From Isoetes taiwanensis (lineage: Eukaryota > Streptophyta > Lycopodiopsida > Isoetales > Isoetaceae), in assembly GCA_021234155.1 (NCBI GenBank), contig JAJEKV010000002.1, forward strand, positions 42,271,203 through 42,335,202: a stretch of DNA of 64,000 nucleotides. The letters are read 5' to 3'. The translations under genes were made by a program, and so were the position numbers. Position 1 is the first letter of the stretch, and every line of letters starts with the position of its first letter. Positions 2,655-62,226 of this stretch are shown here, piece by piece. Below the pieces are notes generated by a model, which had not been told where the DNA came from, did not search any database, and was given only the letters and a program-made list of their open reading frames with translations.

Positions 2655-4640
2655 GTAAGTAAGTAAGTAAGTGTATATTAACGTCCACGAGAACCAAAAC
2701 GGCTATGGGACAAAGTACAATGTTTAATCATTTTATTTGACGCTATCAAGTAACTCATGTATAAACCTGCCAACATGTTTCAAATGGTCTACGTCATTGA
2801 AGAATTCCACTAAATTTGAACTACTCCATCTCAAGTGCGAGAATTTTGCTCGAATACTGTCGTGCTTATGACATCTAAAAACCGCGTGTTCTTCCGATTC
2901 CACCTCACCCGATTTACAAGTACAAAGTCTATCCTTCTGTTCCAGCTTCATCCATCGTCCAACTTCTATCATAAGCCTGTGTGAGCTCATTTTGAACTTG
3001 GCAATAGCCTGGACAAGATATTTAGGCATCTGAACTGATAGATATAATTGCGAACCAAGTGTCATCTGGGGGGTTGAAGTCCCGAAAGTAGTAACTCACT
3101 TTTGCTTTTCCTGTGTTCTGCATGTATCTAGTAATACTTGCCTCCCGTGATACTCGAACCTCATCCAATGAAATGTTAAACCGGGCAATCCATCTCCTAA
3201 CATCACGATACCAGTTGTTTTTATTAGCATCGTCCCATGTTTTTGAGGCTTGTACAGCAGTAAATGAAAGTTTATGCGCTCCTTCAGAACATGTTCGTCC
3301 TAGGAATCGAATTGTTCTTTCAACTGCCACAATTTCTAGAGGGGCAGAGCCCATTTCTGTAAGCATTACCTCATAAGGGGTGCTTTTCTTCACCCCAAGA
3401 AAGGTTTGAAGAAAGAGCTTTTGTATGCCTTCTAGTTCAGCCCATTTTTTCCTTGGAATTGAAGCTCCCCAAATCTCCGACCCATACAAGGCAACTGGCA
3501 CCACAAGCGCATCAAAAAGTCGCTTAAGCAACTTCCAGGATTGAATATTAGCATGCCTACATTTATTGATCATTGCATACAAGGCCTTTGTAGCAGCAGC
3601 AATGCGGTGATTAACACCAGGCGACCAAGGGTGTGAGCAGGCACAGATCTCATATCTCAAATATTCGTAGGAAGCAGCATGCTCCACTAGCTCTCCATTG
3701 TAATGCATGTCGATATGTTTGCGTATCCCAAATCCAAGAACCTTGGTTTTACTATGATTGACCGTCAACCCATATTCAAGACAAAAGGATTCAAGTGCAA
3801 CAAGCTGTGCTTGAAGATCCTTCTCGTTATAAGCAGATAGAAGGAGATCATCCGCAAACAGTAAAAGCATTATCAATTTGTGGTGCAACTTCGGAAAGTT
3901 ACACCCAGCATCAATCAAATATTGCTCTAAACGATCAATATACATACCAAAGAGTGTCGGTGACAGTGGGCAGCCCTGTTTAACACCAGTATCGCTCACA
4001 ATTATGCCAGATAATCCATTAGGAGTGACGACCCTTCCTTCCACATTTTCATACGACCTTCCAATAGCAAACACCCAATCACTTGGGACTCCAATTTGGG
4101 TTAACTTATCAAGTAATTTATGTCGGGGAATTGTATCGAATGCCTTAGCAAAATCCACAAAACAGCAATACAATGGCTTCCTCTATGCTTTAGCTTCCTC
4201 CATCAATGCTCTAATAGTCAAAATATGATCTAGAGTGGATCGGCCTGCCCTAAAACCAGCCTGCCCGTGTGCTCTTTGCCCATTTTCTTCTGCCCATGAC
4301 ACCAGCCTCCTATCAAATATGAGACCAAAGAGCTTAGCCAAAATTGGACTTACCATGATTGTGCGATAGTTGCTTGGTTCAAGCTTATCTCCAGCTTTAT
4401 GGATCGGATGGATAAGGCTAGTTGTCCATGCCTTTGGGAAACCTTCTCTCAGTGCTTATTAAACATGTCTGTGACTCTTGATACCAATTCATTGCCACCA
4501 GCCCGCAATATTTCTGCTGTAAACCCATCTATATCAGCTGCTTTTCCTCTTGCTAGATCATGAATTCCAGCAAACACCTCATCTTCCATGATACAGATGC
4601 ACTCTAGTTCCTTTTGTGGCAATTCCAATTATACAATGCT
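2655..4640 (-). mobile_element. LINE A, 5'-truncated non-LTR retrotransposon
   Basis: Minus-strand LINE containing most of a reverse transcriptase. Upstream linker and palm sequence (EENGQRAHGQAGFRAGRSTL, about 4240-4300) leads after one TAG stop into an open frame at 3022-4173 with FVDFAKAFDTIPRH, GVKQGCPLSPTLFGMYID and the catalytic FADD. The C-terminal part, 2733-3065, lies in a different frame, so there is a frameshift. It ends in a CTC..H..C knuckle typical of this LINE group. The 3' end has the shared hairpin (2683-2711) and a (TTAC)n tail on the element strand (2655-2673). No endonuclease domain is present, so it is 5'-truncated and dead. Confidence 0.9.
3022..4173 (-). pseudogene. Reverse transcriptase of LINE A
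   Basis: The 383-codon open stretch covers RT fingers/palm to thumb: VDFAKAFDTIPRH (motif A region), VKQGCPLSPTLFG (motif B), FADDLLL (motif C, catalytic Asp pair), then KTKVLGFG and the thumb. The TAG just upstream and the frameshift before the C-terminal zinc knuckle cut it off from both ends of the original ORF2. The call as an RT is firm; function is not expected. Confidence 0.9.
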
Positions 4641-13098: not shown

Positions 13099-13330
13099 GA
13101 ATAGAATAGAATAGAATAGATTTTTTAGCGTCCACGGAGACCGACTGGCCTATGGGACCCAAACAAAAAGAGAGCAACAAGCGTATTACTGACATGATTA
13201 AAAAACCCCCGCCCCGAAGGGTTTTCGAGGGAAAAACCTTAGCAGTAACAAGTATGCTAGCATGCTGTACAATTGTATAGGACAGTTCAATACCGTCCCA
13301 GAGGACACAACTGAGTCCGTGCATAACAGA
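13099..13330 (-). mobile_element. LINE B, 3'-end fragment
   Basis: About 230 bp of a LINE 3' end on the minus strand. It matches the 3' end of LINE D (23097-23330) closely: stop region, the AAAACCC/GGGTTTT hairpin, GGGTCCCATAGGCC, the GGCC-AGTC-GGTC hairpin (13139-13150) and a (TCTAT)n tail on the element strand (13099-13120). Only the terminal 3' part was copied, as expected for abortive target-primed reverse transcription. Confidence 0.9.
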
Positions 13331-16620: not shown

Positions 16621-16678
16621 TTTTCGACCTTCTCGGACTCTGAGCTTTGAAATTGCCCTTTTTTTACTCTGAGCTGCC

Positions 16679-17190
16679 TTTTTCGACTCGTGAGTCGAGA
16701 AAGGCCCTCAAACTTGCATTTTTTAAGCTTTTTGGTCGCCTTTTCGACTTCGCGAGTCGAAAGCGACTAAAAACAGTTTTAGGTCGAAGGTCTTTCTCGA
16801 AGTCGAGAAAGGCAACTCAAAGCGAAAACACAGGTTTTATGGATCGGAAGGCCTTTCTCAACTCGCGAAGTCGAAAGGCCTTCACCCATAAAACCCGTTC
16901 AACTTTGGTCGCTTTTCGACTTCCGCGAGTCGAGAAAGGCCTTCCGACCCATAAAACCCGCTTCGGCTTTTTGCCTTTTCGTTCGAAGTCGAGAAAGGCC
17001 TTCGACCCATAAAACCCTGCGTTTTTTGGCTTTGAGCCGCCTTTCTCGATTTCGCGAGTCGAAGAAAGGCCTTCCCGACCCTAAAACTTGCATTTTTCGC
17101 TTTTGAGCTGCCTTTCTCGACTTCGCGAGTCGAGAAAGGCCTTCTCCCCTAAAACTGCGTTTTTCCTCCGAGCTGCCTTTCTCATGCTGT
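16679..17190. repeat. Array of TCGACT/AGTCGA hairpins
   Basis: Eight or so hairpins lie 55-70 bp apart, at about 16679, 16739, 16795 (half), 16852, 16910, 16974, 17039 and 17110. The best one is CTTTCTCGACT-TCGCG-AGTCGAGAAAG. Each is followed by GGCC and a spacer such as TTCGACCCATAAAACC and a T-rich GC(G)TTTTT-GAGCTGCC stretch. Individual arms are mutated, but the inverted symmetry is kept. Confidence 0.9.
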
Positions 17191-18286: not shown

Positions 18287-18693
18287 TGCAACAGAGAAAA
18301 TTAAGATTTTAATTGAGGGATAGTTTGAGAGTGCACATACACCTACAGTAGTCTAGCAACCACTTTTTGTAACGACGATAAAACCCTAAACCTAGTTTTA
18401 AATGGGGAGGAGACAAAATGCTTTCTATTCTTACAGATTTGCTAAATAAGAGTATCAGATAAGGCCTACCATATAGTTTGAAGTTTAGAGTACACCCAAT
18501 TCATAAATCAGGGGACAAGAATGTAGTACAGAATTACAGAACCATCCTGATAGGTAGCACTTTCGCCAAAATTTTGGGAAGCTTGCTGGAATACAAGTTG
18601 AGCACCTAGGCAGAAGAGAATGGCAAGCGCCCCAATTTTCAAGCGAGCTTTCGGAAATATTTTAATACGTTAGATCATGCATTAACACTTTGT

Positions 18694-18981
18694 GTGTTAG
18701 TAGAGAAAGCAAAGGCACCATCTGCAGCATTGTATATTGCATTTATAGATTTCGTAAAAGCATTTGACACTGTGCAGAGGAAGGAGTTAGGTGACAGAAT
18801 GGAGCAGCTCGGTGTTCCAGAAAACATAAGAGGAGCTATCTCACAATTGTATGTAGAGGTATTAATCAAATTATCTCGGGAAGTAAATCTTGTGATAAGG
18901 AACACTACAGGGGTGCGCCAAGGATGTCCTTTATCTCCTACATTATTCGGCCTTTTTATCGACGAGCTTGAAGAATGGTGA
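18694..18981 (+). pseudogene. RT motif A-B segment of LINE C
   Basis: Open piece of 95 codons with VDFAKAFDT-type motif A (IDFVKAFDTVQRK) and motif B (GVRQGCPLSPTLFG). A TGA immediately after LEEW separates it from the motif C segment. Confidence 0.85.
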
Positions 18982-18993
18982 CATGCATGCTCT

Positions 18994-19461
18994 TTGGCAG
19001 GGACTCAGCTTGGAGCTTACATAGTACAATTATTATTGTATGATGATGGTGTGGTGCTATTGGCATCCAACAAACATGTGCTACAAGAGCATTTGCATAA
19101 TTTAGCAGCGTTTTGTGCAGCAAGACAAATGAAAGTAAATGTTGCAAAATCCAAAGTTATGGTGTTCGGGACAAGGGAGAGACCAAAGTTCATGTATATA
19201 GAGCAGGAAATTGAAACAGTGGAGAGTTTTAAGTACCTGGGGATAGATTTCTCCTCAAGATACAACTGGAAGGACTGTGTCAAAAGGAGATCCACAGGCA
19301 GGAAAATGGCGCTCTATGGTATGCTTTCTAAATGTTCTAGAATTTCTTGCATGATTGGGGGCTTAAAAAGCTTTTATTTAAGATATTGGTTCAAACCGTG
19401 CTATTATATGGGGTTCCTATATGGGGACCTAGCATCTCTGCCAAGTTATAGAATCAAATAG
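18994..19461 (+). pseudogene. RT motif C-thumb segment of LINE C
   Basis: The segment has LLLYDDGVVLLAS, where the family has Y/FADD, then VNVAKSKVMVFG and SFKYLGIDFSS, the standard LINE thumb-side blocks. The shifted Asp pair indicates an inactivating change or local frameshift. Confidence 0.82.
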
Positions 19462-19796
19462 AAACAATTCAGAAGCTATTTTTGAGAAATGTTCTTGGCA
19501 TAAAAGCTCAGATACAATATGCAATTATGCTTGCAGAGGGAGGTATGTTTCCATTATAATTGGAAGCATTATTTCAGACTGTAAATTTCATTAATAGGAT
19601 TAGAGATCAATCACCAGAATGCTTATCCCATCAAGCAATGATGGTTTCAGAGCAACAAGGTTGGATGCATGATTTCAAGACCTGAGCAGGAAAATGGGGT
19701 CTGAATGATGAAAATTGGCCTGAATGTAAGACAGATGCAAGAGCATTACTAGAAAGACTTGCAATTGAATGCTTATGGCAGCACCGAGGTAGTAGA

Positions 19797-20165
19797 ATGC
19801 TTCATTACAGAGCTCAGATAAATCACATATGCGAGTATAAGAACCAAGAGTATTTGCGGTCAGAAATGCCGATCCATCTAAAGCATGTCATAGCTCGTTA
19901 TAGAATGAGCTCGCATAAATTGGGAGTTGACACAGGCAGATGGTCAAATACTCCACTTGAAAATAGGGTATGCCGAGCTTGTGATTCTTATAGTGTAGAA
20001 GATGAGGCACATGTACTACTGCATTGCACGGCTTACAAGGAGATCAGGGAACAGTTTGAAATCCAAGCGTCAGATCTTGAATCATTGTTTTCTATCTCTT
20101 ATTATGAGTTAGGATTATATTTGAAGGCGGTAGATAGTCATCATACTTTGATATTAAAAATATGA
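19797..20165 (+). pseudogene. C-terminal zinc-knuckle segment of LINE C
   Basis: This 122-codon segment contains HVIARYRMSSHKLGVDTGRW and a C-x2-C...H-x4-C knuckle (CRACDS, AHVLLHC), the C-terminal domain seen in all LINEs of this window. It is followed directly by the 3' UTR hairpin and tail. Confidence 0.8.
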
Positions 20166-20255
20166 TGTACTTTGCTGGTTTTTTAGTGCTCCATGGCCTG
20201 TCAAGGCCCTAAGTGAGCAAGACCAAATAAATAAATAAATAAAATAAATATTGAT

Positions 20256-21734: not shown

Positions 21735-21794
21735 TTATATTGTTTCCATATTTGTGTAAACAACATGCATTCGTAGTCCTCAGCAGCACAACCG

Positions 21795-23018
21795 GTGACC
21801 AGTAGCATTGGAGTGCGTCAGGGCTGCCCCCTCTCCCCCACACTCTTTGGCTTGTACATTGATCAGTTGGAAGATTGGCTCTCTGAGCATGGAGGTGCGG
21901 GCGCACATCTCATGCATCACACAATCCGGCAACTCATATATGCTGACGATGTCAACCTCATGGCCTATACCCCAGAGGACATGCAACGTCACCTGGATGC
22001 TCTTGACACTTTTTGCCAATTCACTGGCATGCGAGTTAACTTGGCCAAAACTAGGGTGCTGCTAGTTGCATCATCCCGTCAGCCAAGGCTTCCCACATTC
22101 ACTTACCAGGGGCAAGAGGTAGAGGTGGCTCCGACCTACAAGTACTTGGGGATTGAGTTCTCAACTACCACCCATTGGGATGCGGCTATCAGGTTGCGGG
22201 TCACGGCGGGTTGGAAAGCACTATATGCCATGCAGAACAACAGCCACAAGGCAGAGTTGTATGCCTGGGGTCACCAATCACATTTGTTTCGGGTCTTGGC
22301 TGAGCCGGTCCTTTTGTATGGGGCAGAAGTGTGGGGTCCGGTGATATCCCTCAACACTGGAATGACCTCGGCAGTGTGCGTAGGCCTTCTTGGCACGGGC
22401 CCCGGGGTGAAGTCCCGATTCCGTGCAGATCCTACTCCAGAGACAGGCTTTCTACCCCTTCAACGGGTCGCATTGGAACGCCATATCGTTTACTTCCAAA
22501 AGGTGGTCGCTATGGCTGATACACGCTTGTCCCCCGCCTTTGCTTTGGCCAACGGCAATGGGTCCCCAACGCCTGAAATCCTCATTGGAAAGACAAGCAA
22601 GCTCGCTGGTTCTCACGCGGGGTGTGCAGTAAAACAGATGCGCCCGTGTCAGGGACAAAGAAAGATCGCGAGGCACTTAAACTATACCTTGATGCTACTT
22701 TCCTTCGCTAAGCCGTGGGATGCGAGGCTCGGACGCATGTTAAGTCGGCACACTATCGGCAGCAAGTCAATCCTATGCTCACAAGAGGCCCACACCAAGC
22801 ATTTGTACACCCGGCTACCCATGAAGAAGTTGACTTATAGCTTCCATTCAAGACGGGGCACATCGCCTCCGATTGAAACAGGCGTTGGGCTCGGGAAGCA
22901 CGAGAGCAAAGGCTTTGCCAGTGTTGCCACCAGGGCGCGATTGAGGATGAATGTCATGCCCTCCAGATTCGCCTTCAAAGATTTGCCCATATCCGAGAGC
23001 GATATGTTCGATTACTAG
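21795..23018 (+). pseudogene. RT C-terminal half of LINE D
   Basis: 407 open codons: motif B, catalytic YADD, MRVNLAKTRVLLVASS, YKYLGIEFSTTTHWD and the thumb. In this frame the tail lacks the zinc knuckle. The knuckle appears in another frame near 22905-22985 (RLCQCCHQGAIEDECHAL), followed by Arg where LINE G has Cys. So there is a frameshift and a lost zinc ligand. Motif A and the endonuclease are absent by 5' truncation. Confidence 0.88.
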
Positions 23019-23339
23019 TGCCTGGCCAGCCGTTGCATCAGTTATTGACTACGGCGTCAGTGGGTTTGTTGGGGTCGTACCTCCAGGAGGTTATGGATGC
23101 ATGGACTCGTTTGTGTCCTACGTGACGGTATTGAACTGTTCTATGCAATTGTACAGTGTGCCAGCAGGCTTGTTACTGCTAAGGTTTTTCCCTCGAAAAC
23201 CCTTCGGGGCGGGGGTTTTTTAATCCTGTCAGTAATATGCTTGCTGCTCTCTTTTTGTTTGGGTCCCATAGGCCAATTGGTCTCCGTGGACGCTAAAAAC
23301 CTATTCTATTCTATTCTATTCTATTCTATAATCTTCAAT

Positions 23340-25903
<2,564 letters not shown>

Positions 25904-25961
25904 GAAATGAAATGAAATGTATTATGTCTGTGGAGGCCTCACAGGCCTATAGACAACAAAA

Positions 25962-26522
25962 TTACACATCTTCATAAAACAGTAGATGAGTCTCAGTTTC
26001 CTCATCTACTTCTCCACTCTCACTCTCATCATCATTTTCATCCAATAAATTGTTTACAGTATGTACATTGGTCTCTCTGTAGATCAACACTTCAATCATG
26101 AAGGATCCTATCTTATCCCCTGGAAGTGAGAAGAATGTTGTGAGATCATTCTCTTCAATCCCAAAGCGGTCTCGTATCAGCTTGTACGCGGGACATTTCA
26201 GCAAAACATGTTCTTCATCTTCTATATCACCACTCCCACATACTTTGCACTCTCTCATTTCCCTGGGAATGCTCCTCCCCCATCGTCCTACCTCAATGCC
26301 AAGCCGGTGAGAACTCAGTCGCATCCTGCTAATTGTATGCCTCTTCTTAACCGATATGTCCTCCAGTAAATGTTTTGCAACCTTCAACTCAGGATTCATT
26401 TTTTGCTTGTATAGGAACATCTTAGTCATAGGGGTCTGCCATATTTTTCTTTTCACCTGACCATAAACCCATTGTCTAATATCACCATCATATAAAACCG
26501 CATCATCCCACCTAATCCCCAC
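25962..26522 (-). pseudogene. C-terminal domain of LINE E ORF2
   Basis: 186 codons with RMRLSSHRLGIEVGRWGRS, the CCHC knuckle (CKVCG, HVLLKC) and an acidic end (ENDDESESGEVDEETETHLL). This is the longest intact copy of the C-terminal domain here and useful as its reference. Confidence 0.85.
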
Positions 26523-27310
26523 CGGTTAGCCATATTTTTAAGTCTGAGAACCACCCTTTATCCTCACTTGCCTGCATAGCCCGATATGGTATCCTATTGT
26601 TATCCATGCTCCTAATCTTCTTCAAATATCGAATGCATCGAGCATCGCTTCTCCCTCAAGAGGCATTATCTCGCGATTCGGCTAGCATCATTTGGTAAGG
26701 TGTGTCCGAATCTTCACTCCCAATTCTAGACGAGAAATTTCTTTAGGACTTGTTCAACATCATCCCATAACCCTTTTGGCAAGCCTGGTCCCCAAATCTC
26801 GCAACCATACTGGGACAACACTTTGGACTAAAGATTGGAAGAGCTTAATCTTTAGTCGCCATGACCACAAAGAGATTCTTCGCACATGCTGCTCAGACGC
26901 ATATAAGGCCTTGAGTCCTCCCTCCACTCTACGGATAATGCAAGTGTTCCATCCGTGATTTCGTGGATTATCAATCCCAGATACTTATAGGCCTCACAGT
27001 GTGTCTCTGACCTTATCTTTGTATTTAAACCGATGGTCTTGTCTCGAGTGCCCCAACCGTCATGATTTTTGTTTTTTCGGGTTTACTTCCATGCCCTTCT
27101 TTTCACGTAAACTAGCCAATGAATTCAAATGTTGCCGCATGTGGTCTCTTGTCCGTGCAAACATAACCACATCATCTGCGTACATTACGTGCTGAATTAC
27201 ATACCCATTTACATCCGTTCCTCCTCCCCCATGACATCCGAGCAGTCATCTAAAAGCATCAATAAATAGGCCAAATAAAGTCGGAGACATCGGACATCCT
27301 TGCTTCACAC

Positions 27311-28403
27311 CTATATTACGCTTACATGTTCTGGAATCTCTTGAGAAAGTGGTTTAGATAGTTGAACTAATACCTTCTCATAAAGTACTCGAACTGCATC
27401 TCGTAAATCTTTAGGCACCTGCAATTCCTCCATCCGTTCCCATAGTTTCTTCCTGGGAACCTTATCGAATGCCTTCTTAAAATCAACAAATGAAATATAG
27501 ACGCAGGTTTTTAGTACCTTTAACGAGTCCATGATGATTTTCAGCACCAGCAAGTGGTCTAGTGTGGATCTATTCGGTCTGAACCCAGCCTGCGTCTCTA
27601 CCCTTACACCCTTTGCCTCTGCCCATCTGCTTATTTTTTTTTCTAGAATAGTAGCAAACAGTTTGGAGAATAGGCTACTCACCATGAGCGTTCTGTAATT
27701 GTTAACATCCGTCTTCACACCCCCCTTGTGAATTGGAACAACTCTGTTCAATTGCCACTCCTTGGGAAATCCACGAAGTCACGCTTTGAACATTAAACAT
27801 GTTCACAATTACGTTACATAGTGGCTTGCCAGCCCACTTCAAGTGTTCAGCACAGAGCCCCTGGACATCCTTGGCCTTTCCATTTGCGAGTTGCCTTATT
27901 CCTTCGGACACCTCTTCCTCCATGACCATTAAGTTTGATATCTCCTTTATCTCATCTGGAATACCCTCATCATGGTATAATTTTTTTACCTGCTCCCATA
28001 TTTCACTGGCGGTCAGGGGGATCTCTTGTTTATTAGTCCCTTTCAGCTTATTCCAAAAAGTTTTCGGCTCTTCAAGATATTTGTTTACTAACATTTCTTG
28101 CTGGTCCCTTACAAACCTCCGTTTTTTCTGCCTAACCATTTTTTGATATTCTTTTCTACATCGATCTCGCTTTGCCCCCCTGCTGTTTCTAAACATTTTC
28201 TTTGCGCTTATGCACTCACCATCAAACCATGAGTTACACTTCAGGCCTTTTTGTATACGCTGAGATGTGGAGCATTTGACTGAGGCAATAGCCAGTATAC
28301 TATGTAATGTTATGCTGATTTCATTTGCTTTATCTGTCCACTCTGCTTCTGCAATTAATTCTTCCACTAGTTGCTCATAGTGTTTTCTCTTTTTCGGATT
28401 CAA
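27311..28403 (-). pseudogene. Linker and RT N-terminal half of LINE E
   Basis: Two overlapping frames (28403-27702 and 27751-27311) join by one frameshift. The first is a basic helix-rich linker; the second holds RT blocks up to motif A (FVDFKKAFDKVPRKKLWERM). Confidence 0.82.
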
Positions 28404-28420
28404 TCTCCCACCTATGACGC

Positions 28421-28425
<5 letters not shown>

Positions 28426-28456
<31 letters not shown>

Positions 28457-29970
28457 GAAGTGTATTAAGTCTTTGGGAGGCCTCAAAGGCCTAAAAAGAC
28501 AACCAAACTTTTACACATCATCATAAAAGAGTAGATGAGTTCCGGAATCCTCATCTAACTCGTCCTCTCCTCAACATATTATCATCCTCTATAATGTTAT
28601 TCAATCTCTTAGGACAATTCTCTCTACATCTCATCAATTCTAATATATATGCCCCAATCTTATCTCCTCCCAAGGTAAAGAAGGTACAAAGATCTTGGGC
28701 ATTAATCCCATGTTGTGCTCTTAATGCATGATAAGCACTACAATGAAGCAATGCATGTTCTTCATCTTCTATTTGTTCTTCCCATAAAATCTTACAATAT
28801 CTCTCCATCCTAGGGATAACATGTCCCCATCTACGGTTCCACTCCCAAATGATCTGAGCTAAGGCGTATTAGATCCTATTGCATGCCTTTTCTTTATAGA
28901 GATATTCTCATGTAGGTACTTGGCTATTCCCAAACTAGGATTCATACTTTGCCTGTATAGAATCATTTTTTGTTTTAGGTTGAGACCACATCTTCTTGTA
29001 TACCTTACAAAAACCCATTGTCTCAAGTTATTGCCTACCGAATGCCTCCTTTGATCAATATCCCATTTCCTTAGCCATCTTACAACATCTTGAAACCATC
29101 CTTTATCCTTGCTAACCAAAAGGGCCTTGTGGGGAGTCTTGTCTTGTCCATGGTATCCACTTTTTTTCAGGTATCTAATGCATCGATTAACGCTTCTCCT
29201 TCTAAGGCATAAGCCCACATTCGATTAACATCATTTGATATGATCGAGCTTTTACCCTATCTCAAAGGCGTATGAATTTCTTTAGAATTTGCTCTAAATC
29301 ATCCCATAATCCTGTGAGGCTAGGCCCCCCATATCTCCTTGCCATATAATGCTACACTCGTACTAGTGAAACAAAAAGTTTACGCTTAAGTGACCAAGAC
29401 CATAAATGTGCTTCTCGGCATAGGCTACGCATAGCATAAAGAGCCTTATAACTCCATCGATTCTCTGCTTTGTATGCACATGTTCCATCTATGGTTCTGT
29501 GGAAAATCAACCCCAAGTATTTATAGGAATCACATGTATTCACGAGCTCCCTTATATTGAAATAATTCTGTTTAAGTGCCCCTCTTGTCATGATATTTGT
29601 CTTATCCAAGTTCACTTGCATTCCCATGGTATCCTGGCCGGGCCAGCCCATCTAAATGTTTACGCATTTTGCGGTGATCGGCAAAAATAACTCGTCATCG
29701 GCATACATTAGTATCTCGTGCCACATAGCCATAAATATCATCCCCTCTGGGCAATTGTCATGTAACCGAACCCTCAAGGCTGTCAATGAACAATCCAAGC
29801 AGTGGAGATATTGGATTGATATATATTACGGGTTTTCTCTGAGAGGGAAAGGAAATATCAATACCTTTTCATATATATTACGGCACCTCTATCAATATAC
29901 TCTATCAAAGGCCTTTCTAAAATCACAAGGCTACATGAGAGGGAAATTTGAGCAAATTTGATATCAATAC
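28426..29970 (-). mobile_element. LINE F, same lineage as LINE E
   Basis: Minus-strand LINE lying directly upstream (in element sense) of LINE E. It has a short RT remnant near 29950 (DFRKAFDRVY) and 29700 (LMYADDELFL) with much lost between them, VNLDKTNIMTRG and CDSYKYLGLIFHRTIDGTCA (29352-29651), a middle segment (28859-29218) and a degenerate knuckle (EDEEHALLHC, 28551-28808). The 3' end has GTCT/AGAC around two AGGCCT words (28469-28500), then (ACTTC)2 and a (TC)14 tail. Confidence 0.85.
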
Positions 29971-34030: not shown

Positions 34031-34112
34031 TATAATCCTTTTCTATGTTTTTCTAACCACTATGCAGACAAAAGACAGATTTAAAGATGTATTTTACAAT
34101 CAAGTTCTGAAG

Positions 34113-34646
34113 ATTGCAATATTCTCCTCACAGGTGCCCACCATCTTCGCATCGAGACGGGCAGGTGGATTGGGGAGCCCCGCCAGGACAGGCTCTGTCA
34201 GTGCTGTCAAACGGGTGCCATTGAGGATGAGTCTCACACTTTCCAGAGTTGCCCAGCGTTCAGTCACATCCGGGCCAGATACGCTCCCTTAGTACGGCCG
34301 GACGTGCCCTTGCATTTGCTGATGAACACACCGTCAGTACGTGCCCTGGGGTCATACATTCAGGAGGTACTGGACCTGCGGGGTCACCTTTGCCCCCGCC
34401 TGGCTGCCCGCTGACTAGGCACTACGGGTGTGGTGCATGACTGTATATATTTGGGTGTTTCTGCATTTTATATGATTAGCACAGTTTGTCAGCAGGCTGA
34501 TTGCTGCCACGGTTTTTCCCTCGAAAACCCTTCCGGGCGGGGGTTTTTTAATCCGGGCAGTAATCCGCTTGCTGCGTTTTTTGTATTGGGTCCCATAGAC
34601 CGATTGGTCTCCGTGGACGATAAAAGTACCTTCCTTCCTTCCTTCC
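34113..34646 (+). mobile_element. LINE G, 3' end inserted in the gene-fragment cluster
   Basis: A plus-strand LINE 3' fragment. Its coding part, 34131-34414, reads HHLRIETGRWIGEPRQDRLC and QCCQTGAIEDESHTFQSC, an intact-looking CCHC knuckle, ending at a TGA. The UTR has the AAAACCC/GGGTTTT hairpin, a perfect GACC-GATT-GGTC hairpin (34598-34609) inside GTCC...GGAC, and a (TTCC)n tail (34629-34646). TCAAGTTCTG-A/C-AG lies on both sides (34100-34112, 34647-34659), a likely 13-bp target-site duplication. Inserted between the beta-amylase and TBL pieces. Confidence 0.9.
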
Positions 34647-36182: not shown

Positions 36183-39100
36183 ATGACATCCTTAGATTTT
36201 TCAGACATTACAACCATCTCTTCTTCGGAAAAAGTGTGCGTCGATGATTCCATCAAATCCAAGGACGTTCTAGGGATAACTAGCTCTCCGTCTATCAATT
36301 CCTCATCGGCCAAATCGAGTGGCGTAGCACGAGAACGGTCACTCCGATGTGAGTCTGTGTGCCCTTTTTTTTCTCGTCATTTACTATTCCCAAACTAATT
36401 ATGAACTTCCGACTTTGTTAGTAGGTAATGTTGGCACATCGCAAAGAAAATGCAGAAGTTTGCTCAACTTATGCCTAGGTCTTTTGGGGAGACACTTGGA
36501 ACAAATTTCGGATGAGATCTCTATGGTTGCTCCAGTATTTCCTTCTAAAGTAAAGGTATGTCTCAAGCAAATCATGTTAAACCTAAATTTCTCTAGTATT
36601 ATCCTTTTAAAAATGATGAATGATGGAAAGATTGAGTCAGAGGTTAATCCAGCATTGCAGTCTAGCATTGCAGTCTTAGTTGAACGGGCTTTAGCAAAAC
36701 TTGTTAGTGTGGGATTACATGCACTGAAAATGCAATCTTACACTTTTCAGTTCCTTGCGTTCTTTAGAGGACCACACTATGGGCCTCAGTTATTATAGTT
36801 TTGCATTCTCTTCATAGTTAAATGGATGGCTTTGCGAAGAAATAGAAATGGAATAACATGATTCTAACAATAGAAAAGAAGATGCTTATTGCATTCAACT
36901 AGTCAGAGCTCTAGACTGTAAAAAATATACTACCATCTTTTAGAGGTACAAAGGCCTTGCCGTTAGGTTACATACAAAAGCCTTGCCGTCAGGTTACATA
37001 TGATACATATGAGACTGGAAGTATCTTCCACCGAGAAAACATTATTATAATGTAGTCCATGGAAAGGATACTTACTGCTGCATCCAAAGAGATTAGTATA
37101 ACCCTCATGGTTATGTTCCTCCTTGACCATGTACTCCGTTTTAAGTGCCTATGCCTGAACTTCTTTGTATTGTATCCTTCTCATCTTGATTGATATTAGA
37201 GTGTTTCTATTGCTTTCCAACATGATATTAGTGTGCTCTATGCTAATTTGTTTTTAGAGAGAGAGAGAGAGAGAGGACGGAGGGAAGCGGGCAAATTTGG
37301 CTGTAAATTTGGCTGGCAAATTTGGCTGCAAATTTGGCTGGCAAATTTGGCTGTAATCTCTCCCTTTGCCTATTTCATAGAAGTCACAAGAAGTGATTTG
37401 GGCTGTTGAAGTGTCAGGAAGAATCAAAGTACCTGGAGGTTGGTCGAACAAGATAAATAGCATCATTGGGGTTAAACCGGGCTGTCCCTTGCTCCCTAGT
37501 TTCTTTGGCCTGTACATTGACGAGGTTTTCCTTATCCCTTTGTTCTTTGACCTGTAAAAGCTTTGTGTGCACACTGAAGAGTGCACTTCCATCCTTCTTT
37601 ATGTGGGCACTGGGAAAGGAAATTCTTCCAAGCTGATTTCCAAGAGATTTCAGTAAGGCTCTATCTCTTCAACACTTTGGTTAGACGAGCTGCATTATAT
37701 GGTGCTTGAGATTTAAAAGCTTCTCACAATGGATTAGTATATAGACTTTAGACTCCCCACATAACTTGAAACATTGAGACAGATCACTTAGGTCTCACCA
37801 TCAGAAATATTCTAAATTTACTGTATGCTATGAAATTGGACTTGGACTACATATGAAAGGGAGCACATTATTCAGTATACATGTTTATAAAATGGAGTTG
37901 CAGAAAGGGAGAATAGAATGCTCTGCTAAAGAATGGTTCCTTTTAGATAGCGTGAACTGCTGCTCTTCCTAAATTTGGGTTCTAGTGTTGAATGTCTGGC
38001 TTCTCAAAAGTGTTCTTTTGCTTTATAACTTTTATGTGTCTGGCAGATTTGCTTAATAGCAATTGCTCGTCGAAGAGGATTGCTACATGATAAGCTTTTG
38101 CTAGCTTTGGCAGATGAATCATTTGAATTGCTGGATATATCTGGATCAGATGTCACAGACATGGGCTTGGAGGGTACAGTGAAAATGTGCCCTCTTTTGA
38201 AAGCAGCAGACATTAGGTATAGTTTTGGGCTGCATTTCTTTTGCACATGCCAGAGCAACTATTTTGAGAGACTATGATTTTTGTCTTTTTGCAGTCGATG
38301 CAGCAGAGTGACTTCTCGTTCCATACTGGCATTGGTTATGCATTGCCCTTGTTTGCAAACATTGAGATGTGGGTATGAGTTTTTTATGTGTAAAATGTCT
38401 GTTGTCTTATTCTATAAGCCATTTTGACTTTTAATGGTATCTTAACAGTGGCACTTTAATGAGCAACAAAGCAATAAAATCATCACTTAGCTACATTTGT
38501 CCAGGCTTGAATTTGGAAGCAGTAGAAGAAAGCTGGGAAAATCTTGAAACCAAGGAGATTAGAAGGGGTGCTTTATCTTTGCAGTGGCTGATTTGGGTAA
38601 GCAAGGTGTCGATATGTGGCACCTTTTTTAAACGACAAATCAGGTTTTATTTTCCTATTTTTGTGTTTAGGTGTGAATCAATGGTGTTTAGACTAGCGCT
38701 TAATTGTCTATTTCAGCAAGTAGATTTGCAGACCTTAATGTAGGATTCACATGAGCCTCTAAATTTGCAGCAGTGAGGGAGGTGGCCGTGACCAGCGGTA
38801 CAGCAGCCCTCTAGCTGCAACAGTCCCGCTAATAGGTGTACGCGCGGCTGCTTAAAAATTTGCAGTGCTGCTTGAAGATTTGCAGCGCTGCCTAAGATGT
38901 CACGCCCTCTTGCAGCTGGCATTTTTTCCTCTATGTGCATGTGAATCTGCCATAATTCACATGTATGGCTACTGTGAATTGCCCCCAGATGTTTTTACCC
39001 CTTTTTTTTCGCTGTCACTACTGATCGTTGGCATGCACCCTTGACTGTTATTAAATAAAATACAGCCACCTACATTGCCATGACTTTAGGAACTAGCCTT

Positions 39101-44099: not shown

Positions 44100-45210
44100 G
44101 TTCCCAAGATTCTATAAAGACTTCGATAGAATCCTTAAGATTCTCTTGAGATTCCTGTAGATTCTCTAAGATCCTATAAAGATTCTTCTATATTTTTCAA
44201 GATTGCACCAAGATTCCCATAGATACCCTTAGATTTCCCTTAGATTCCTTATGATTCTACAAAGATTTCCCTAGATTCTTAAGATTATATGGAGATTCCC
44301 CTGGATTTTATTAAGATTCCCTTAGATTCTTCGAGATTCTATCTAAATTCCCATAGATTCTTAAAGATTTTATGACAATTTCCATAGATTCTCTTAAGAC
44401 TCCCTAAGATTCCTCTAGGTTCCCAAAGCTTATACCATGATTCCTCTATGTTCCCTAAGATTCTATGAAGATTCTCCTAGATTCCCCAAGATTCTATGAA
44501 GATTCTCCTAGATTCTCCAAGATTCCATCAAGATTCCCCTAGATTCTCAAAAATTTCAGGAAGATTCTTCTAGATTCCCAAAGATTCTCTTAAGATTCGC
44601 TTAGATTCTCCTAGATTCCCAAAGATTCTCTAAAATTCTTAAAGTTCTACAAAGATTCCCTAGATTATTAAGATTCTACAAAGATTCCCTTAGATTTTAT
44701 TAAATTCTTCTAGATTCTCCAAGATTCCATCTTGATTCCCATAGATTCTTAAAGATTTTATGAAGATTCCTTCAGATTCCCCTAGATTTCAAAAGAATAC
44801 CCTAAGATTCCTCTAGATTCTCCTAGATTCTTCTAGATTCTCCAAGATCCCATCAAGATTACTTTAAATTCCAAAATATTTTAGGAATAATCCCCTAGAT
44901 TTCAAAAGAATTGCTTGAGATTCCTCTAGATTCTCTTGAGATTCCTCTAGTTTCCATAGATTCTATGAAGATTCACTGGACCCCAAGATTCCTTCAAGTT
45001 TCCTCTAGGATCTTAAAGATTTTATCAAGATTCCCTTACATTCCCTTACATTCTCAAACATGCTCTCTTGAGCTTCCTATAGATTCTCTAAGATTCTCAT
45101 GATATTCCTCTGGATTCTCTAAGATCCTATAAAGATTCTCCTAGATTTCCTCAATAAAGATTCTCCTAGATTTCCATAAGATTCTTAGTATTCGATTATG
45201 TTGGCTCTAA
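44100..45210 (+). repeat. Left arm: AAGATTC/TAGATTC minisatellite
   Basis: About 1.1 kb of short units alternating AAGATTC and (C)TAGATTC with 4-10 variable bases between, heavily diverged and with no fixed higher-order period that I can see. Confidence 0.92.
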
Positions 45211-47450: not shown

Positions 47451-47595
47451 TGCCTTTTGCCGTTTGCCGTTTGCCTTGCTAAGGTGCCTTTTGCCGTTGA
47501 TGAAAGCTTGATGAAGACTTAAAAGGCAGGCAGATTGATTACTGTATGCTCACAAACCAGACTTTACTCATTGATGTTAACAACCAATGATGCAG

Positions 47596-48402
47596 GTTAA
47601 AGGGCAAATTACCTATAATGGCCATGGATTGCAAGAGTTTATTCCGCAGAAAACCTCTGCATATGTAAGCCAATTTGATTTGCATGTGGGTGACATGACT
47701 GTTAGAGGAACGTTAGAATTCTCTGCACGTTGTCAAGGTAGAATCACATCATTGTTTAGCGTTACTTTATGAATTGAGTGTAATCGGTACATGTTTTTTG
47801 TTTACCAACATGTCCGTGATTGGTGTTCTTGAGATGTAGGATCTGTGCAAGTGAAGTTTGACACGCAGTATATTCTCCATGCCATGGAAAAGCTGGAGAA
47901 CTTAGAGATGGAATTAACAGTGAGAACAGACAAGCACTTGGGGACATTGGCAATCTTGTGTCGGCAAGGTAATGTTCTAATCTCATTTCTATTGTGGCTA
48001 GAATAGCTTCCGCCAGAGCTGCTGCTTTCAATATTAGTTCTGCATTTGAAGCATAGGCTTGATTGTGTGCACTAGCTTTTGAGTCTCATATCGTTACTCT
48101 AGAAGGTGCAGAAGTGAGCATAACAATCTGCTTGTGTGATATACAGGTCTACTTTACTTAGTTCATGTGCTTATTGTCATGTATTTAATGTGCGACCTCT
48201 TAGTGCTTGGCACGGTTTTGCAATTATTGCTTTTGTATTGCTGAATGTAGTCATTGTTCATTTTATCAGCCAACATCTATTGATGTAGTGGTGGCTCCAA
48301 ATCCACCTACACCTGCATTCTATCCTTGGATCAATTCTAGGGGCTCAGGTTCTCCGCTCATCAATTGCCTGATGCCGCCTCTGCCCTCCTCGGATCCTGC
48401 AC
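47596..48402 (+). pseudogene. ABCG/PDR transporter exon joined to unknown exons
   Basis: The exon 47596-47737, bounded by GATGCAG and a CAAG|GTAGAA donor, reads [40 protein letters not shown] and EFSARCQ, the block after Walker A of plant pleiotropic-drug-resistance ABCG transporters. The next exon-like piece, 47840-47968, splices in frame to give SVQVKFDTQYILHAMEKLEN and LEMELTVRTDKHLGTLAILC. That is not the transporter continuation and is unrecognised. A third, 48270-48402, reads PTSIDVVVAPNPPTPAFYPW and ends at a perfect CAC|GTAAGT, but is out of phase with the second. It appears to be a chain of exons from different genes. Confidence 0.65.
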
Positions 48403-50389: not shown

Positions 50390-51060
50390 GAATGTTGATG
50401 AATGTTGGTGAATGGGAATCTTGAAGGATCTTTATAGAGACTTGAATGATCTGAGGGAATGTTTAGATGCGGTGAGAGAATCTAACGATAATTGTGGAAA
50501 ATTTTATCTCAAACCTTAATTTTCCTGGCTAGTCTCAACATTAGAAGTTGATGTCTTAACTCTCGTGAAATCTTTGAATAATCTTCGGGAATCTGGTGGA
50601 ATCTTCAGAGAATCTTATATAAAATCTAGAGAATCTGGAGAGATTCTTTTCAAAACTAGAGGAATCTAAGGGAATCTTCATAAAATATTTGAGAATCCAT
50701 AGGAATCTTGATGATTGAAGAATTTAGAGGAATCTTTATGGAATCTAAAGGACTCCAAGAGAATCTATATAGAACCTTGGAGAATCTAGAGGAATCTTCG
50801 GATAATCTTTAAGGATCTAAGGGAATCTTATTATACTCTTGGGATAATCTTTGAGAATCTAAGGAAATCTTATTATAATCTTGGGGAACCCTTATAGAAC
50901 TAGGGGAATCTTAAGAAAATTCACGTGAATTCCTATAGAATATTGGAGATTCTAGGGGAATCTCTGCAAAATCCTAGGGAATCTAAAGGGATCTTCATGG
51001 AACCTTAGGGATTCTATGGGGATTAGAGGGAATTTTAAAAACTTTAGTCCCAAACGTTAC
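50390..51060 (-). repeat. Right arm: inverted AAGATTC minisatellite
   Basis: Words such as GAATCTAGAGGAATCTT, the reverse complement of the left-arm consensus. A block ending TCTCAAC.TTAGAA.TT..TATCTTAA occurs near 50540 and 51080, showing two larger units in this arm. Confidence 0.9.
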
Positions 51061-60669: not shown

Positions 60670-62226
60670 AGGTTGTGCAACTAAGCCAGCTAGGGATGGG
60701 TAAAGGTTCTCGTATATGGTGATGGCGGCATATTTAGCAATATTGGAGTTCGACAGGGCTGCCCTTTATCTCCTACACTTTTTGGCTTGTACATTGATCA
60801 ATTGGAAGAATGGCTTGATAATCATGGCGGCGGAGGTCCACATTTGGCACACTATATCATTAGGCAACTTATGTATGCTGATGATGTTTCACTTCTGGCA
60901 CATACCGCTGCTAGTATGCAGCAACATTTACATGCTCTGCACAGTTTCTGTGAGAACACAGGTCTGCGTGTTAATCTGCAAAAGACCAAGCTTTTGGTAG
61001 TTCAATCTTCTCGTCACAATGTTCCCCTATGCACTATGATAGCGAAGTTGAAGTTGTAGATAGCTACAAGTATCTTGGTGTAGAATTGCGTAAGAACACA
61101 CTCGGGGAGCGATGTATTACCAAGCGGGTGGGCTCTTTGGATGGAAGCACTCTATGCAATGCAAAACAATTGTTTTCCTTTGAGAAATTCATGATTGGCC
61201 ACGGAAAGCCCACTTGTTTTGGGCTTTGGTAGAGCTGTTTTCTTTGTATGGTTACGAAGTGTGGGGGCACGCCATTAGTGCTAGTGCTTGGGAGAGCTTG
61301 GGCGGGTGCAAAAGTCCTTTCTCACTTACAGCCTTGGAGTTAAAAGAGCGGTGCCCTATGCTATTCTTTTACAAAGAGGCGGGTTTTGGCCTCTTCAACA
61401 TTACGCCATGAAGCGCCATCTCCACTATATCGCAAAGGTGCACCACATGGGCGATGTTAGGTATCTGTTCTTGCACTTGCCATGGTTTGAATCTCCTCGG
61501 CGTTTGAAAGCGATGTTGGAAAGAGCATTGCACTACATGGTTTTGCGTTGAACTGTGCAACGCCGCCTTGCACGATGCTTGCCGGTTCGATCACGAGCTT
61601 TTGCAACAATATCTTAATGGTCGATTTTTCTCAAAAGATATGGGGCCTTGATTACTTTGGCCCAAGTGGCCGGTCATTATCATGCACACATAAATCCCAC
61701 TTTGGCACGGGGCCCCAAGCTTATTTGCTTGCTTCATTGTCCAGGAACAAGCTTGTAGCTATTGCATCAATTCGCACGGGGTCCCACAGTCACGGATTGA
61801 GGCGGTAGATGGGGCGCCGCGAATTGCCGCGGAGAAGCGAGACTATGTGCTGTTGCCGCCATGGGTTATTGAAGATGAAAGCCATACTCTTCCGAGTTGC
61901 CCCTGCTTTTGAGATAGTCGGAATCATTTTTCGACCTTAGCATTCCATTCCACGCTTCCACAACTTCTCGGTAGCACCATCATTGCATGACTTGGCATTA
62001 TACATACTTGAGGTTCTAGATAAACGTCTGCAATTACTGAGCCCTCAGTAGTCATTATCTAAGCTTGTCTAGTATCATCATTACTGCAAAGGTTTTTCCC
62101 TTGAAAACCTTTCGAGGCAGGGGTTTTTTAATCCTAGTAGTAATGATTGTACTAGCCCATTGTATGGGTCCCATGACCTATTGGTCTTCGTGGACGTTAA
62201 AAAAACTATTCTATTCTATTCTATTC
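60670..62226 (+). mobile_element. LINE I, related to LINE D
   Basis: Plus-strand LINE starting, like LINE D, at RT motif B: IGVRQGCPLSPTLFGLYIDQ, then IIRQLMYADDVSLLAHTAAS with the catalytic YADD intact. Frameshifts follow near 61050 (YKYLGVELRK in a new frame) and 61250, and the C-terminal part is badly broken. The 3' UTR has AAAACC/GGTTTT, a perfect GACC-TATT-GGTC hairpin (62175-62186) inside GTCC...GGAC, and a (CTATT)n tail at 62206-62226. Confidence 0.9.
60787..61059 (+). pseudogene. RT motif C region of LINE I
   Basis: 90 codons beginning in motif B and including YADD, LRVNLQKTKLLVVQSS; then a stop. Nearest relative in the window is the LINE D RT (shared IDQLE.WL..HGG, HYIIRQL.YADDV). 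Confidence 0.88.

Follow-up and report, generated by a model that had tools for sequence, protein, structure and literature searches.

Several LINEs are known to carry a stem-loop at the 3' end of their RNA. In UnaL2, ZfL2-1 and ZfL2-2 of the L2 clade, a stem-loop with an upper and a lower stem is followed by short repeats; deletion or swapping of this element stops retrotransposition of ZfL2 LINEs, and a region of the fish LINE protein binds its stem-loop in a loop-specific manner (PMC4176376). In plants, a 3' hairpin with compensatory changes occurs in LINE1-1_ZM, ZmSINE2 and ZmSINE3 (Ohshima), and stringent recognition has been proposed for the corresponding L1 elements of maize and sorghum. 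The L1s of flowering plants mostly end in poly(A); tandem-repeat tails, e.g. (ATT)n and (CTATTT)n, are found in RandI and the non-poly(A) L1 of green algae (PMC3747384). A different type of 3' structure, the ENE, is present in the plant retrotransposon Evade, where it forms a triple helix with poly(A) and raises mobility (PMC12501189).

The hairpin considered here was found in Isoetes taiwanensis, in a window of 64,000 nt (assembly GCA_021234155.1, contig JAJEKV010000002.1, positions 42,271,203 to 42,335,202), at the 3' ends of LINE copies belonging to lineages A, B, C, D and F, the letters being assigned in this analysis. The arrangement is like that of UnaL2 and the ZfL2 elements in having an upper and a lower stem followed by short repeats. 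Unlike theirs, the present loops vary within lineages, and the hairpin is known from sequence alone. With LINE1-1_ZM and the maize SINEs it shares the compensatory changes, and it differs from the maize and sorghum L1 hairpins in its tandem-repeat tails, which resemble those of the green algal elements, and in a fold that spans proteins 32% identical. Neither the UCU loop nor the CGAG 3' flank of maize and sorghum is conserved: TCT was present in the loop region of 20/44 D, 1/21 F, 0/31 A and 0/2 B and C ends, and CGAG on the 3' side of 4/98 ends. In the partial literature at hand on plant, fern and other LINE 3' hairpins, no publication was recognised as describing this hairpin.

Hairpins and tails in the window

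The first-pass annotation had proposed a common plan just before the tail of LINE copies in the window. Letters and strands were as given at all eight intervals that it listed, although its text counted seven copies, and a tandem-repeat tail was indeed found directly 3' of each of the eight hairpins:

23263..23291, plus strand: 3'-terminal hairpin, lineage A; GTCC CATA GGCC AATT GGTC TCCGT GGAC, then GCTAAAAA and (CTATT)n
13130..13158, minus strand: 3'-terminal hairpin, lineage A (folding and window descriptor scan)
34590..34618, plus strand: 3'-terminal hairpin, lineage A; (CCTT)n tail
62168..62195, plus strand: 3'-terminal hairpin, diverged subfamily of lineage A (folding and window descriptor scan)
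2683..2711, minus strand: 3'-terminal hairpin, lineage F; GTCC CAT AGCC GTTTT GGTT CTCGT GGAC, (ACTT)n tail
20188..20218, plus strand: 3'-terminal hairpin, lineage D; GCTC CAT GGCC TGTCAA GGCC CTAAGT GAGC, (AAAT)n tail
25926..25954, minus strand: 3'-terminal hairpin, lineage B; GTCT ATA GGCC TGTGA GGCC TCCAC AGAC
28469..28500, minus strand: 3'-terminal hairpin, lineage C; outer stem GTCT/AGAC, inner stem GGCC/GGCC

Each consists of a 4-bp outer stem, a 5' linker of 3-5 nt, an inner stem of 4-6 bp with a short loop (3-8 nt, the letters varying also within lineages) and a longer 3' linker; beyond the outer stem a short spacer leads to the tandem-repeat tail. Upon RNA folding, this plan was the minimum free energy (MFE) structure in 7/8 hairpins. 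At 2683-2711 (minus) the MFE structure had a shifted outer stem, and the plan was the centroid. In a hand alignment of the 4+4 stem pairs all 64 of 64 cells were standard pairs, a value reached by 26 of 20,000 permutations in which the 3' strands were re-dealt among the eight hairpins. With one copy kept per lineage, which left four lineages, full pairing was reached by 2/24 permutations of the outer and 6/24 of the inner stems.

A descriptor of hairpin plus tail, written after the sites had been seen, gave 97 hairpin matches on both strands of the window, compared with a mean of 62.2 (sd 9.3, maximum 89) in 30 dinucleotide shuffles. A tandem tail followed nine of the window matches, as against seven in all 30 shuffles together (maximum 2). 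These nine were the eight known sites and 25691-25722 (plus), which was judged to be a chance match; it lies in an apparent local duplication beside (GA)n, and no LINE piece was called there. In four descriptor hairpins the tail lay 5' instead of 3'; two of these were the B and C sites on the opposite strand. When a covariance model was built from the five GTCC copies, 25926-25954 topped the non-training matches at an insignificant E of 1.5, and the hairpins at 28469 and 20188 were absent from its 11 matches in the window. An isolated reverse transcriptase (RT) fragment lies at 37411-37536 (plus); no such hairpin was noticed in the surrounding 37300-38100, and the descriptor scan gave no hairpin with tail there.

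Elsewhere, the window contains two degenerate arrays of short AAGATTC-like units (44100-45190 and 50570-51018, the second inverted relative to the first), tandem and inverted repeats rich in AGTCGAGAAAGGCC (16676-17183), and a frame at 47581-47769 (plus) which we take to resemble an exon of a PDR-type ABC transporter, a resemblance that would point to a land plant.

LINE lineages and their proteins

Comparison by tblastn divided the LINE copies of the window into at least five groups. Named by the start of their hairpins, these are A (13130, 23263, 34590 and 62168), F (2683), D (20188), B (25926) and C (28469), with the following coding remains:

2736..4455, minus strand: lineage F LINE; RT in 3022-4182, C-terminal cysteine-histidine motif in 2736-3095
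18397..20162, plus strand: lineage D LINE (tblastn)
21777..23119, plus strand: lineage A LINE (tblastn)
60694..62036, plus strand: lineage A LINE, diverged (tblastn)
34085..34411, plus strand: lineage A, C-terminal remains (tblastn)
25965..28406, minus strand: lineage B LINE (tblastn)
28578..29714, minus strand: lineage C LINE (tblastn)

Between groups, most RT pieces of the window show 30-50% identity, some of them less, and even within lineage A the 62168 and 23263 copies have RTs only 42% identical. A complete frame was found in none of the window copies, which appear 5'-truncated or broken. The B and C tails run into (TC)n (25722-25900 and 28424-28453), and the 5'-truncated B copy starts adjoining the tail of C; this could reflect preferred insertion into (TC)n or into LINE tails.

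Long-frame members were obtained for lineages D (L123, 1051 aa, with the 3' end L070) and F (L124, 1069 aa, with the 3' end L112). Over 1,037 aligned positions the two proteins share 32% identity, and the same hairpin plan is present at both 3' ends. RVT_1 was called in both (E 9e-34 and 2e-33). Exo_endo_phos was called in L123 only, at 25.1 bits versus a cut-off of 24.5; no endonuclease domain was called in L124, whose N-terminus aligns with that of L123. The C-terminal cysteine-histidine motif was read directly from the sequence, the support from zf-RVT being sub-threshold. Against solved structures, phmmer scored R2 chains at 96 bits and human L1 at 66 bits, an order of scores and not a clade assignment. 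On these protein features the hairpin-bearing elements are taken as APE-type LINEs.

The hairpin across the genome

The genome searched was that of the window itself (1,658,258,908 bases in 1,110 contigs). The A-type hairpin pattern had 5,614 exact matches (2,829 and 2,785 in two counts), and the same pattern reversed, as a control, had none genome-wide. The lineage A sample comprised 31 copies, of which 27 were picked by this exact pattern and are consequently uninformative on hairpin conservation. Lineages B and C, both with GTCT/AGAC, are represented by one window copy each.

Sampling independent of the hairpin was achieved by searching the genome with the C-terminal proteins of D and F. 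The D search gave 21,761 first-look candidates and 151 matches, from which 44 3' ends were read (identities 100 to 48%, window copy included); the F search gave 17,117 candidates and 150 matches, with 20 3' ends read (identities 93 to 40%). In both cases the copies were hand-chosen down the match lists. Of the two outcomes that the first-pass annotation had named as speaking against its proposal, a lack of significant covariation among tens of copies and absence of the hairpin from most full-length members, neither was observed; with motif anchors typed from the letters seen, the hairpin was present in 44/44 D and 20/20 F ends. A letter-blind geometry descriptor, whose limits were set after the sites had been seen and for which a match anywhere in the first 150 nt was counted, recovered it in 34/44 D and 16/20 F ends, compared with 0.95 and 0.65 on average in the respective shuffles (maxima 3 and 2), and with 2/44 and 0/20 on 120-nt flank stretches. 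The misses that were compared had mostly one broken or wobble pair. When the cut-out hairpins were folded, the MFE structure contained both stems in 39/44 D and 13/20 F copies, and in the seven F failures the outer stem was displaced, to CCAT/GTGG or a similar pairing. Since the F members L111, L113 and L116 cannot form this displaced stem, GTCC/GGAC was kept as the shared one.

Relatives were also sought in Viral_contigs by pattern scans and RT searches, and none were found. The hairpin core had 28 matches in bacterial and archaeal genomes, none with more than two of the four outer pairs; these were attributed to chance and serve as a control.

A tandem tail was called in 97 of the 98 sampled ends, the exception being L108. 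The tail units vary within and between lineages (AAAT, AAATT, ATT, ATTCT, CCTT, ATCT and others), which would follow if recognition falls on the hairpin rather than on the repeat. Spacers are typical of the lineage, with GTTAATA in 21/21 F copies, and an A-run of at least four within the first 12 nt after the hairpin was present in 31/31 A, 0/44 D, 3/21 F and 0/2 B and C copies.

Covariation between and within lineages

Because MAFFT misaligned the eight mixed hairpins, pairs were compared between lineages on an alignment made by hand or by fitting. The first outer pair is G-C, the second T-A or C-G, and the third and fourth C-G or T-A; the first inner pair is G-C or A-T and the second G-C, G-T or A-T. 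At the second to fourth outer pairs and the first two inner pairs, both sides have changed between lineages and pairing has been kept. The third inner pair varies within lineage D (C-G 35, T-G 5, T-A 2 and unpaired C/A 2; n = 44).

Among 59 distinct hairpins, 460 of 472 cells were standard pairs; when the halves were re-paired with the same fit, 2,000 permutations gave a mean of 415 and a maximum of 433, the relatedness of copies being ignored. Within lineages the outer stems are nearly invariant, and all 2,000 permutations reached the observed value. For the inner stems, the observed value was reached by 65/2,000 permutations in D, 282/2,000 in F and all 2,000 in A. With outer stems near-fixed within lineages, there are few independent covariation events. 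The compensatory changes reported in the first-pass annotation are borne out between lineages and weak within them: the covariation between lineages is real, and rests on few lineage-level changes.

This weakness within lineages is what would be seen if the hairpin had no function and reflected identity by descent among copies, plus chance. Such an explanation is scarcely credible, as the fold is kept between proteins 32% identical, a distance at which unconstrained noncoding sequence should no longer align, and as shuffles yield about 1 of 44 with the letter-blind descriptor. It is likewise very improbable that the shared letters arose by exchange of 3' ends between lineages, through template switching or recombination, rather than by descent with selection on the fold. 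Lineages A and F are near-identical in GTCCCATAG...GTGGAC despite RTs about 38% identical, as exchange would produce; yet in D and in B/C the paired positions hold other letters and still pair, and spacers and tails differ by lineage.

A second RNA element in lineage A

Upstream of the lineage A hairpin, a further putative structure was found at each of the four window copies:

23162..23246, plus strand: ENE-like or pseudoknot element upstream of the lineage A hairpin
13175..13259, minus strand: ENE-like or pseudoknot element, lineage A; fold z only -1.2
34488..34575, plus strand: ENE-like or pseudoknot element, lineage A
62069..62155, plus strand: ENE-like or pseudoknot element, lineage A; outer stem changed and still complementary, MFE structure differing inside the stem

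The element is about 86 nt long, contains U5, AAAA and U6 tracts, and in the window copies is separated from the hairpin by 12-16 nt. Subfamilies differ in the letters of its long outer stem, with pairing retained. Single folds in the window gave z values of -1.2, -3.6, -4.9 and -5.3. The whole structure, terminal hairpin included, was paired in 86.6% of 1,056 cells over 31 copies, a count favoured by the derivation of the tested structure from one of these copies; sliding the partner along it reduced pairing to 48% or less. None of 500 shuffles reached the observed pairing, covariation score or number of doubly changed cells in the 31 copies; the number of pairs with a double change was reached by 45/500 and the number of further pair types by 179/500. 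The helices flanking the U-tracts were 87% and 89% paired in the 31 copies.

In 3/31 copies the element is missing; read by eye, these copies seem to break off close to its 3' side, consistent with 5' truncation. The pairing counts use all 31 copies, and the motif, column-identity and 28-copy RNAalifold analyses drop these three. With default settings, RNAalifold returned no structure (0.0) for the 28 copies. RIBOSUM scoring, chosen after this negative result, gave -32.9 versus -13.6 (sd 2.6), with none of 200 column shuffles as low; default scoring on the four window copies yielded the lineage A structure. Mean column identity was 0.95 (with their GG) and 0.93 for the U-tracts and 0.96 for AAAA, compared with 0.78 and 0.80 for the outer stems. 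A loose ENE motif, defined as facing U-tracts between G-C stems, was matched by 26/28 uncut copies. The element had no Rfam match at gathering score, and four matches far below it at a loose threshold.

The predicted layout, in which U-tracts face each other between G-C pairs and an A-run lies within reach, matches that of ENE elements. It is like the Evade/Copia93 ENE in having a U-rich internal loop between G-C pairs in the 3' UTR (PMC12501189), and an A-run is available here too, but in a LINE with a tandem-repeat tail, the A-run being encoded by the element and an alternative pseudoknot being possible. This alternative, an H-type pseudoknot (GGUUUU/AAAACC, CCCUCG/CGGGGG) modelled by hand, fits equally and would explain the conserved AAAA. 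As a tentative possibility, the 3' end of lineage A may work in two parts: the U-tracts would clasp the element-encoded A-run past the hairpin, and the resulting triple helix would present the hairpin to the RT, whereby a non-poly(A) LINE would both protect and position its own 3' end.

Discussion

The presence of one hairpin plan directly before the tail in sampled D and F members, together with the joint changes of its paired letters between lineages, argues that the hairpin is probably a conserved 3'-terminal recognition element of a large APE-type LINE group in this genome. By analogy with stringent-type LINEs such as ZfL2 and UnaL2, we infer a role in template recognition by the reverse transcriptase. 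The LINE's own protein would bind the stem-loop at the 3' end of the RNA, its endonuclease would then nick the DNA, and reverse transcription would begin in the repeat tail just past the hairpin, slippage there generating and altering the repeats. Selection for recognition would have preserved the fold, the protein diverging to about 32% identity and the paired letters changing jointly. Some observations sit less easily with recognition: loop length and letters vary here, whereas the fish LINE protein reads loop letters; the outer stems are near-fixed within lineages, with few lineage-level pair changes; and the MFE structure does not contain both stems as drawn in 7/20 F and 5/44 D copies.

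Alternatively, the hairpin could be a signal for 3'-end formation or RNA stability of the LINE transcript and not a binding site of the RT, being retained because it lets RNAs with this end be produced or persist. Its position at the 3' end of sampled copies agrees with such a signal, and so does the additional structure of lineage A, whose type is known for stabilising the RNA of a transposon (PMC12501189). Still, D and F have the hairpin, yet no second element was noticed at their 3' ends when read by eye, and in fish, roles of tandem-tailed LINE 3' hairpins in retrotransposition have been tested, so that this explanation appears unlikely. Template recognition, suggested by these precedents, would be the simplest account.

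A single 3' recognition fold would then be common to LINE lineages with proteins of only about 32% identity. Such a fold, in elements with tandem-repeat tails, bears on the proposal that stringent RNA recognition was the ancestral state of plant LINEs (PMC3747384). Should the ENE-like element of lineage A be real, a LINE would join the transposons that protect the ends of their RNA.
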